64,000 nt of DNA from positions 186,001-250,000 of the forward strand of contig CANLUT010000004.1 in assembly GCA_947494335.1 (NCBI GenBank), read 5' to 3'. The notes beneath the pieces were generated by a model. That model was given only the letters and a program-made list of their open reading frames with translations. It searched no databases and was not told where the DNA came from. This document shows, piece after piece, positions 49,766 to 53,593 of the stretch. Position 1 is the first letter of the stretch; the number at the start of each line of letters is the position of its first letter. The DNA comes from Oligoflexales bacterium (GTDB lineage Bacteria; Bdellovibrionota_B; Oligoflexia; Oligoflexales; RGVZ01). The position numbers were made by a program, and so were the translations under genes.

Positions 49766-51018
49766 GGTTGTGGCTCCTTGACGGTCAAAAGACCGCGAAT
49801 CCTGTTTTCATCTAAAACAGCGTTTTTTAGGGTCTCAATCTGGCGCAGCTTGCTCCAGATGGTTCTTGGAATAAACGATTGCACGGTCAATGGCTGCGAG
49901 TCCGTGCGCTTATGAACCTCATGATAAACTGACAACACACCGCGGGCGACCCGGTACCAGTTAAACCGCTTTACACGGTCAGCACCTGCACGCACTAGTG
50001 AGGCTCGCAACTTAGAATCCGTCAGAACTCTATGGAGTGCCAAAGCTAGCTGATCACGGTCCAAAGGATTAATGAGGATCGCGGCCTGACCTACCACCTC
50101 TGGAATGCTACTTGTGCAACTTGTTACGACCGGCGCTCCTGAGGCCATGGCTTCAAGAGGCGGCAGACCAAAACCTTCGTAAAGACTTGGATAAGCCACA
50201 AGCCTGGCGTGGCGGTAATACTCACTTAACTCGGCGTCAGTGACAAAGCCTTTGAAGATAACGTCATCCCTGAATTCACGAGCTTTCAGCTGTACTGAAG
50301 CAAACAAAGGGCTTTCGCCACCAATCAAAACAAGTTTAGTTTTAATTGATGGATAGTCGTGACGAAGTTTTTCGTACGCCTCGATCAGTACTTTAATGTT
50401 TTTACGAGGTTCAAGTGAGCCCACATACAAAATGTAATCGCCGCCATAATCAATGGGATTTGACTGATCCGTCGAGGGTGGCAAGGAAAACGTGTCGTCA
50501 ACGGCCCAGTATACCAAACTGACTTTTTCTGCCGGCAAACCAAAATACTGGAGGAGGTCGTTTTTAGAGTTGTTGCTGTTGGTAATGACTTTAGTGGCCC
50601 GCTGGGCAAGTTGCGGGATAATCAAGTTATAAACCGTACGAAACGCAAAACTATACCACTGGGGATTTACAACAAAGCACAAGTCATGAATGTGAATAAT
50701 CGATTTGCCCGAGTAAAATAGCGGTGCCACGTTAGCAGGAGAATGTAGCACATCGATTTTATATTTTTTGGCCAAACGCGGCAGGCGCACCTGCTCCCAG
50801 ATGTGATTTCTAAAACTTTCCATCGGCCGCAAATTATCGCCGACCACAGTGACATTGGGATAGTTCCACTCAGGAGCACCAATTTGCTCTTTACCGGTAA
50901 AAATCACGTACTCGTTTTCGCGATCAATCTCGATCAGAGTCTTTACCAGGTTGTAAGCGGCACGCTGCACACCGGTTCTTTTCGCCACGAGAAAGCGTCC
51001 ATTAATCCCGACTCTCAT
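49762..51018 (-). CDS. GT4-family glycosyltransferase
   Basis: 418 aa, GT-B fold. MRVGINGRFLVAKRTGVQRA (N-terminal acceptor domain), IHIHDLCFVV, and the donor domain with YVGSLEPRKNIKVLIEAYEK, SLYEGFGLPPLEAMASGAPV and the conserved ExxxxG/E pair. GT4 enzymes add sugars from nucleotide donors with retention, here probably to a cell-surface or capsular glycan. The C-terminal ~50 residues are extra. Overlaps the next glycosyltransferase upstream and asnS downstream by 4 bases each. Confidence 0.92.
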   Translation of the reverse strand: MRVGINGRFLVAKRTGVQRAAYNLVKTLIEIDRENEYVIFTGKEQIGAPEWNYPNVTVVGDNLRPMESFRNHIWEQVRLPRLAKKYKIDVLHSPANVAPLFYSGKSIIHIHDLCFVVNPQWYSFAFRTVYNLIIPQLAQRATKVITNSNNSKNDLLQYFGLPAEKVSLVYWAVDDTFSLPPSTDQSNPIDYGGDYILYVGSLEPRKNIKVLIEAYEKLRHDYPSIKTKLVLIGGESPLFASVQLKAREFRDDVIFKGFVTDAELSEYYRHARLVAYPSLYEGFGLPPLEAMASGAPVVTSCTSSIPEVVGQAAILINPLDRDQLALALHRVLTDSKLRASLVRAGADRVKRFNWYRVARGVLSVYHEVHKRTDSQPLTVQSFIPRTIWSKLRQIETLKNAVLDENRIRGLLTVKEPQP

Positions 51019-52163
51019 GACGAAACGCCTCCCGTGGCACTAAAGGTGCTGGCTACGGGGCGAGGCCCTGTTCCAAGGCAGCTTCGATACAACGTCAATG
51101 TTTGGTCAGTCATGGCATCCCATGAGAATTTTTTTCGATGCTCGGCGATCCCTTGGCGGGAACGCTCTACTAGTTTTACATCATTCACACCGCGTTCTAG
51201 AGCACGTGCAATATCCATATAGTCGTAAGGATCAGCAAAAATTGCGTAATCTCCCACCACCTCTGGCAAAGATGACGAGCGTGCAACCACAACCGGTGCA
51301 CCACAGCTCAGAGCTTCAAGTGGCGGCAAACCAAAACCCTCGTAAGTAGACGGATAGACGAATAGCTTAGTCATCGAGTAGACGGCAGGAAGATGCTCTT
51401 CTGCAATAAACTTCGAGAAGTAAATAAGATGTTTCTTATTAAATGATTCTGCCAAGCGCAGGAGCGCAACATCGATCGGGGTTGCTAACACCAACGGGAT
51501 CTCAAGGTTTGACTGACAGTATGCGCGGACCAGCTGCTGGACGTTTTTATGGGGCTTATTGTTGGATACGCACAAAATGAACTCGTCGGGAAGCTCATAG
51601 ATCTCGCGCACGTATGACAAGACCTCAGGATCTGCAACGGGCTGATAAAGATCACTCACTCCGTTATAGGTGACAAAAATCTTTTCTGGATCCAAAGATA
51701 GCGTGCGAACAATTTCTTGTTTGGAGAACTGGCTGACCGTCAAAATATAGGTCGAGCGGGCAATACAGCTTTTTACAAAGACTCGGTAGTAGACCTGGTG
51801 AAACGGCGTATAAAAGTGAGGTAACACCAAGTGGTTAAGATCGTGAATGGTCATGATCATTTTGCACGGAGAGAGCAGGGGAGCTACGAAGGACGGAGCG
51901 TGAAATAAATCGATCTTGTGTTCCCGTAGACGTCTTGGGATTTCAATCTGCTCTCGGAAACTAATCCAGCCCGCATCCACATCAACAAAATGGATGAACT
52001 CTGGCCAGGATAAAGACTTTAACGGGCTGTCGCGGTTCACAAGTACGTAAAAATCAAAATGCTTTTCACGCGACGCCACGCCACGAATCAATTCGTAAAC
52101 GTATCGTGCAATGCCGTGCATGCTGCCCGGCTTGATCATTCTGGCATCAATCGCAACCCGCAT
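51015..52163 (-). CDS. GT4-family glycosyltransferase
   Basis: 382 aa, similar to its downstream neighbour (about the same architecture, AIDARMIKPGSMHGIARYVY, ILTVSQFSKQEIVRTLSLDP, YPSTYEGFGLPPLEALSCGA). It is the first gene of the glycosyltransferase-glycosyltransferase-asnS unit; its stop overlaps the next start (ATGA). The sugar and acceptor are unknown. The two enzymes probably act in sequence on one surface glycan. Confidence 0.92.
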   Translation of the reverse strand: MRVAIDARMIKPGSMHGIARYVYELIRGVASREKHFDFYVLVNRDSPLKSLSWPEFIHFVDVDAGWISFREQIEIPRRLREHKIDLFHAPSFVAPLLSPCKMIMTIHDLNHLVLPHFYTPFHQVYYRVFVKSCIARSTYILTVSQFSKQEIVRTLSLDPEKIFVTYNGVSDLYQPVADPEVLSYVREIYELPDEFILCVSNNKPHKNVQQLVRAYCQSNLEIPLVLATPIDVALLRLAESFNKKHLIYFSKFIAEEHLPAVYSMTKLFVYPSTYEGFGLPPLEALSCGAPVVVARSSSLPEVVGDYAIFADPYDYMDIARALERGVNDVKLVERSRQGIAEHRKKFSWDAMTDQTLTLYRSCLGTGPRPVASTFSATGGVSS

Positions 52164-52325
52164 ATCCCGTGGATCCCATTCAAAAAATGGCCCCCATTCT
52201 CTATCTGTAGCCTTGCCATGTCTACTTTATAAGAAAATGCGGCACAATCCACTGAAATAAATAATATTTTTATAAGTTAGGACGAAAGAAGGGGGGCTCA
52301 AAAGCCCAAAATCTAATGTCAACGA

Positions 52326-52817
52326 TTACCTTTGGCAACTGAACGTAGGATTCAATGCTACAGGCTTTCCTGAAAACAACTCGTCTGCCGACATACCGGT
52401 ACCATCCATTATCATCTGACACAAAGGATCACCCGAACCACACATGCCCACAACCCAGGTGTCCTGAGTGACACCGGCACACAGAGTTTTTCCGTCTGCA
52501 ATCCCCGTCACAGCATGATAGGATTTACCACCAAGCCCAACTGGCTTTAGTTGGGGCGCCATGTACCACTTACCTTCTAGAGACGCCTGAGTCACTCCTA
52601 AATCGGACCAAGACTGCGTGTAAGCATTGTTCTCCGCGTGAAATGAGGATTGAAGCGTATTTACTTTGCGTAGTATGTTGACGGCCTCAACCCGCCGAGA
52701 CTTCGCTACAAAAATCTCCATTTTAGGCGCAGCAACGGAGTACAAAATTCCGATAATACCCACTACGAGCATCAGCTCGATAAGGCTAAACCCCGATTGC
52801 CTGTTTACCGGTACGAT
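52326..52817 (-). CDS. Type IV pilin-like protein, apparent ATC start
   Basis: 163 aa. The pilin signature is unmistakable: a prepilin leader ending in Gly, then FSLIELMLVVGIIGILYSVA with E5. But the first in-frame ATG (52772) lies inside this helix, and no ATG, GTG or TTG occurs upstream before a stop. An AGGAG site (52825-52829) leads at 7 bases to ATC (52817), which would give the leader IVPVNRQSG. So either ATC is the start, or ATG was lost by mutation or error. The C-terminal part has cysteine pairs (CGSGDPLCQMIMDGTG, PTFSCQR), as in many type IVa or pseudopilins. Confidence 0.75.
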   Translation of the reverse strand: MVPVNRQSGFSLIELMLVVGIIGILYSVAAPKMEIFVAKSRRVEAVNILRKVNTLQSSFHAENNAYTQSWSDLGVTQASLEGKWYMAPQLKPVGLGGKSYHAVTGIADGKTLCAGVTQDTWVVGMCGSGDPLCQMIMDGTGMSADELFSGKPVALNPTFSCQR

Positions 52818-52870
52818 ATAAAATCTCCTGGAGCCACAGTTTAACGCTCCAAAGTTTTATGATCTTAAAA

Positions 52871-53593
52871 TTAGAAAACTAGACCGAAATCAACAGTAAT
52901 ATCGGGCTGCGTCATCATACGATGCTTCATGCTGCGACGCTCAACAGGATTTAGGTCGGAATATTGAAGTTTAAGTTTCTCCTGATCAGCCTCTGATACG
53001 TCAACGTCAGTCACCTGAGAATTCATGTGACGAATACCGACATGGGCGCCAAAAGCCAATGGCCAATCACTGCCAACATAACGATAACCGAGTCGAATAT
53101 GCCCCGTTGCGCCTTTGCCTTCCACTTTGTGGTGAAGATATCCCTTCTCGTCAACAAATGCTAAACGAAATGACTCTTTGTCTGTCACTTGCTTTTTCCA
53201 ATCAGCTTGCCAGCGTCGATAGCCAGCGCCAAGTGACCAGAAGAAACCTGCCATGTTGGCTTCATCACTATAGCGGCTCATAAGAATCGATGCCTGCATA
53301 CCATTGATTTGCAGGGAGTTGCCCGTCAGAAGTATTTCTTCGTCAGAAAGCTCTTCCACTGCAGAGATAACTCCGGCTTCCAGTGCAAGACCAACACTTC
53401 GGTCGGCGTTATACTCTGCATGAATACGGAGCTGTGGCCGCTCTGCGATCAAAGGCAAACTAAAGAGCCAATCGCGGCCGCCTTTTGAGGAGCTCGGTGA
53501 AGGAATTTTTTTCGCGGCGGCTCCCATGGCCGTCTGCGACGCCAGACCAAGCCCCATCCCTATTAATGTGATGGCAATTTTGCATACTTTCAT
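52871..53593 (-). CDS. Hypothetical outer-membrane beta-barrel-like protein
   Basis: 240 aa. A signal peptide (LIGMGLGLASQTAMG) precedes alternating strands (RLAFVDEKGYLHHKVEGK, GHIRLGYRYVGSDWPLAFGA, DITVDFGLVF) and a C-terminal Phe, the mark of outer-membrane barrels. A polar, charged loop (VTDVDVSEADQEKLKLQYSD) lies near the end. No specific family recognised. Directly upstream of the pilin on the same strand (53 bases). Confidence 0.6.
   Translation of the reverse strand: MKVCKIAITLIGMGLGLASQTAMGAAAKKIPSPSSSKGGRDWLFSLPLIAERPQLRIHAEYNADRSVGLALEAGVISAVEELSDEEILLTGNSLQINGMQASILMSRYSDEANMAGFFWSLGAGYRRWQADWKKQVTDKESFRLAFVDEKGYLHHKVEGKGATGHIRLGYRYVGSDWPLAFGAHVGIRHMNSQVTDVDVSEADQEKLKLQYSDLNPVERRSMKHRMMTQPDITVDFGLVF

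Follow-up and report, generated by a model that had tools for sequence, protein, structure and literature searches.

This locus raises the question of how, and whether, a type IV pilin gene is translated when no ordinary start codon precedes its cleavage site. The gene lies in the window, the whole 64,000-nt stretch of DNA that was analysed. An earlier note had described a prepilin signature in a minus-strand ORF for which ATC was the only plausible start codon. A base-by-base check and a Pfam N_methyl match confirmed the signature. The following elements were located in the sequence:

52326-52856, minus strand: prepilin-encoding open frame, 176 codons from opening to stop.
52326..52817, minus strand: prepilin CDS counted from ATC, 163 codons plus stop (sequence, Pfam, AlphaFold).
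52815..52817, minus strand: ATC codon at the start-codon position, 7 nt 3' of AGGAG.
52825..52829, minus strand: Shine-Dalgarno (SD)-like AGGAG.
52791..52817, minus strand: leader codons up to the cleavage Gly, (M/I)VPVNRQSG, 9 residues.
52770..52772, minus strand: first in-frame ATG, within the mature helix (FSLIEL/MLVVG).

The pilin frame opened at 52856 after a stop and ended at 52326. From 52856, the codons were AAC TTT GGA GCG TTA AAC TGT GGC TCC AGG AGA, followed by TTT TAT ATC GTA CCG GTA AAC AGG CAA TCG GGG and then TTT; GGG encoded the cleavage Gly and the TTT after it the mature Phe. None of the 21 codons 5' of the cleavage Gly, back to the preceding stop, was an in-frame ATG, GTG or TTG, and from the stop of the upstream gene to the cleavage Gly there was no ATG in any frame. 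A search for another upstream start giving an in-frame leader found none, and this candidate was ruled out. As the earlier note had held, the nearest in-frame ATG (52772) was too late for processing; it lay inside the mature helix, and a product begun there would be without the cleavage site. Its placing of AGGAG at 52825-52829, leading at 7 bases to ATC at 52817, matched as well. At 9 residues, the leader fell inside the span of lengths found in the survey, and the 163 codons were open, with no frameshift or internal stop. A frameshift fusion with the upstream gene was rejected for lack of overlap, as the pilin frame does not open until 52856, after the upstream gene has ended at 52871.

The window's pilin matched Pfam N_methyl with 28.0 bits (cutoff 21.2). 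A class III signal was present, with G/FSLIELMLVVGIIGIL, Gly-1, a hydrophobic residue at +1, Glu+5 and a hydrophobic helix. When the pilin was aligned with 29 homologs taken from other genomes, the G, F, L, E, L, M and P were invariant. The AlphaFold model, run with this 29-homolog alignment, consisted of a helix (12-63) and strands (89-125) with a mean pLDDT of 68.8; confidence was high at residues 11-30 (pLDDT 94-95) and low towards the C-terminus. The best PDB fold matches were the type IV pilins 1ay2 (E 0.004) and 6xxd (E 0.04), both of modest significance. The pilin aligned full-length to pilins and carried none of the disabling lesions beyond the start that would mark a pseudogene.

With the type IVa prepilins (PilA-like, Pfam N_methyl PF07963), the window's pilin shared the GFSLIELM cleavage/methylation motif with Glu at +5, a long helix at the N-terminus with a beta sheet after it, and cysteines near the C-terminus. 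It differed from them in that it had no canonical start and that its best relative, at 41% identity, was the second pilin of its own genome. This second PilA-like pilin, at C1:826484, had AAGGAGGG and then ATG. The same genome had one Peptidase_A24 match (the prepilin peptidase), six T2SSE-family ATPase matches over the cutoff and ten N_methyl matches. The codon score of the pilin was among the three lowest of the 63 window ORFs, as would fit a gene that is foreign or under loose constraint. By its motif, predicted fold and intact frame, the ORF is a genuine accessory prepilin gene, full-length and type IVa-like.

Pilin content varied strongly across the genus. One same-genus genome (G004:C388:67-1134; L006, L197) had tandem pilin genes, each sharing approximately 40% identity with the second, PilA-like pilin at C1:826484 in the window's genome.

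The missing start was compared with 239 distinct prepilin-like ORFs in the loci gathered for comparison, in which a start was sought within 30 codons. A canonical start was found in 235, and one of the others was cut by a contig end. The three ORFs without a canonical start were the window's pilin, L109 and L202. Both L109 and L202 had an out-of-frame ATG close upstream, a pattern that would be expected from a small indel; near its leader, the window's pilin alone among the cases surveyed lacked an ATG in all three frames, and it is therefore unusual. An AUC start common to the lineage was rejected by this survey (235/239 canonical, hence no lineage habit) and by the other prepilins of the same genome.

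In the prepilin of L109 (approximately 260-300; Candidatus Schekmanbacteria), the sole nearby ATG was out of frame, and a run of eight A between this ATG and the cleavage site may reflect phase variation or a homopolymer error. In L202 (approximately 375-420; G009, same family), the nearest ATG of the prepilin did not share the frame of the cleavage site.

Among 322 in-frame near-cognate codons of prepilin leaders, 5 (1.6%) had AGGAG 5-9 nt upstream. The SD-ATC pairing is unlikely to be accidental, with a chance of roughly 1-3%. Since such pairs are rare, the true start most likely lies at ATC.

The earlier note had offered three options for this ATC: a rare AUC initiator, a freshly broken gene, or a base error. 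A real prepilin with ATC as its only plausible start was upheld. The probabilities given here to four explanations are our judgement of how rare each event is, not computed likelihoods.

If the base were wrong, through a sequencing or consensus error, or came from a minority strain in the population assembly, the organism itself would have an ordinary start. One single-base event would be enough, and the gene, leader and SD were otherwise textbook. Against such an error, long unbroken ORFs filled the window densely, nothing pointed to an error-rich assembly, and the assembly consisted of 8 contigs (97% complete). These properties argue against frequent errors and leave room for a single one. 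Good assemblies seldom contain isolated substitution errors, and this explanation was considered unlikely.

The tRNA loci were analysed with ARAGORN. A single tRNA had initiator features (C1 mismatch and GGG/CCC anticodon stem), and its anticodon was CAU; the Ile-GAT tRNA resembled an ordinary elongator. A dedicated AUC-reading initiator tRNA (GAU anticodon) was not found among these loci. A cognate GAU initiator would be helpful, not defining, as known AUU and AUC starts use the CAU initiator.

Initiation by third-base mispairing is disfavoured by IF3 (PMC10158994, PMC5472188). The E. coli infC gene starts with ATT and that of Streptomyces with ATC; the sigR start is GTC and is repressed by IF3 (PMC5472188). 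In E. coli O104:H4, a spontaneous rpoS ATG>ATA change made RpoS up to 5-fold lower and did not abolish it; the ATA start was cited at up to 1% efficiency (PMC12864459). Because the rpoS change caused a drop of only up to 5-fold, such start codons are leaky and not dead.

Like infC (AUU in E. coli, ATC in Streptomyces) and Streptomyces sigR (GTC), the window's pilin had a near-cognate codon at the right SD distance; however, the infC and sigR starts are experimentally shown and conserved, while that of the pilin is known from the sequence of one genome. The E. coli O104:H4 rpoS variant and the pilin shared AUH at the start of an otherwise intact gene. For rpoS, both the original ATG and the fall in protein level are documented, whereas the pilin is known from sequence.

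The infC of the genus appeared to start with a conserved TTG, which in the window's genome lay 7 nt after AGGAG. With its SD-led conserved start apparently TTG, infC was rejected as a local AUU/AUC precedent. In the infC loci of the genus and family (L173-L179), TTG was conserved in 7/7 with an AGGAG-like sequence upstream in most, and ATC or ATT three codons past the TTG was also conserved in 7/7.

These results bear on the explanation that AUC is a natural, selected start, whose weak initiation, possibly together with a hairpin, would keep the pilin low or conditional. Perfect SD spacing, an intact gene and the known non-canonical starts (infC AUU/ATC, and sigR GTC under IF3; PMC5472188) are in its favour. 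However, such a start was absent from every other surveyed prepilin, a matching initiator tRNA was not found, and infC of the genus apparently uses TTG. This explanation was considered possible, if doubtful. Two further features overlapped the start region:

52815..52864, minus strand: 18-bp imperfect hairpin, 3' arm with AGGAG and ATC (RNA fold).
52805..52837, minus strand: out-of-frame GTG mini-ORF MAPGDFISYR, ten codons, GGAG 9 nt upstream.

The fold of 52812-52868 had an energy of -15.2 kcal/mol, compared with -8.1 ± 2.5 for shuffles (z -2.80, 0/200); this z is optimistic, since the stretch was picked after the fold was seen. For a longer 97-nt stretch, the fold was not significant (z -0.88). 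In the RNA model, the hairpin over the SD and ATC could repress translation, and its enclosure of SD and AUC (z -2.8) would suit a natural AUC start. Against this, the stem may just as well terminate transcription of the upstream barrel gene, because three relatives carried a terminator-like hairpin directly after the stop of that gene and because an A-tract and a T-tract flanked the window's stem. That the SD and start of an AUC-initiated pilin are locked in the hairpin and switched on translationally, whether by structure melting, translation of the GTG mini-ORF or relaxed IF3 control, was considered improbable as a whole.

The GTG of the mini-ORF (52837-52835) was the only other start-like codon with an SD-like sequence between the upstream stop and the Gly. 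The mini-ORF overlapped the ATC, and its TAA (52807-52805) was inside the pilin leader, shortly after that codon. This GTG was rejected as the pilin start: its frame stops at 52805, so a frameshift would be needed. The layout of the mini-ORF could permit reinitiation.

The surroundings of the pilin were compared with those in relatives. The neighbouring features were:

52871..53593, minus strand: outer-membrane-like beta-barrel protein, upstream conserved neighbour (weak Autotransporter match only).
51015..52163, minus strand: family 4 glycosyltransferase, downstream conserved neighbour (family search).
52294..52307, minus strand: terminator-like stem after the pilin stop.

The distance from the barrel gene's stop to the ATC was 53 nt. 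The flanking genes were syntenic in relatives, and the variable slot between the barrel gene and glycosyltransferase pair corresponded to 52163-52871 in the window and to L166-L172. In G002, the closest relative at the locus (neighbours 78% and 87% identical), the gap was approximately 197 bases and held a terminator-like hairpin only. In G003, G004 and G005, the slot held a lipoprotein gene in the opposite orientation, recognised as von Willebrand-like by eye from its sequence; in G006-G008, of the sister genus, the gap had no gene. Protein searches revealed no ortholog of the pilin in 58 genomes of the class and no close ortholog in the genome_contigs or viral_contigs scans, so a natural AUC start has no orthologs in the class to show its conservation. 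As the pilin is present here and the gap is empty or differently filled in relatives, the pilin is, from this comparison, the occupant of a variable slot and found in the window's genome only.

The DNA 3' of the pilin was clearly homologous to that of G002. The 5' flank showed no significant similarity to relatives, with 62.6% of shuffles equalling it against G002. An insertion junction sought by alignment to the intergenic DNA of the relative was rejected on this account, since without significant similarity on the 5' side it cannot be placed.

The slot also bears on the explanation that the pilin ORF lost its 5' end on arriving beside the barrel gene, so that with the genes so arranged no start ever existed at 52817. 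The hairpin would then be the terminator of the barrel gene, with its 3' arm providing AGGAG by chance. In agreement, the window's hairpin, with its A-tract and T-tract, occupied the same place as the terminator-like hairpins straight after the barrel stop of three relatives, and the DNA 3' of the pilin was homologous to G002, which has no pilin. However, the junction was not placeable, the 5' flank being without significant similarity to relatives; moreover, the leader was ordinary in length and composition, and AGGAG at such a spacing would arise by chance in approximately 1-3%. An arrival in truncated form, together with the chance AGGAG, was considered quite unlikely.

The explanation that we favour, while holding it to be somewhat short of an even chance, is a recent weakening, by substitution, of the start of a dispensable accessory pilin, which would leave the gene leaky or nearly silent. 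The intact body with a pilin fold and the ideal spacing of the SD to the ATC agree with it. An attenuated, dispensable pilin is suggested because the gene is unique to the genome and lies in a variable slot, a second pilin has an ATG, the only initiator found has a CAU anticodon, and a hairpin is predicted over the start. As there is no second lesion in the 163 codons, any loss must be recent.

Against a weakened start, no relative had a canonical start at the position of 52817, and the ordinary ancestral start is assumed. Furthermore, the SD and spacer were perfectly kept, as for a used start, and natural AUC starts occur elsewhere (Streptomyces infC, PMC5472188).

If the start was weakened, the sequence of events may have been as follows. 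A prepilin gene would have been acquired, or retained, only in the window's genome, in the variable slot. A substitution would then have weakened its ordinary start to ATC, in a gene that the cell can presumably do without. The 30S subunits would be recruited by AGGAG, and the third base of AUC would be mispaired with the ordinary CAU initiator tRNA, which IF3 disfavours, giving low product. Any prepilin made would have a normal 9-residue leader, which the single prepilin peptidase found could remove. The pilin is probably produced at a low level, if at all.

Genes with non-canonical starts are overlooked or shortened by gene finders; the window's pilin would be called from the ATG within its mature helix and would lose its cleavage site. 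If AUC is unused, the gene would be an ordinary case of accessory pilin silencing or of base error. If AUC is truly used, a surface-structure gene would join the very short list of bacterial non-canonical starts.
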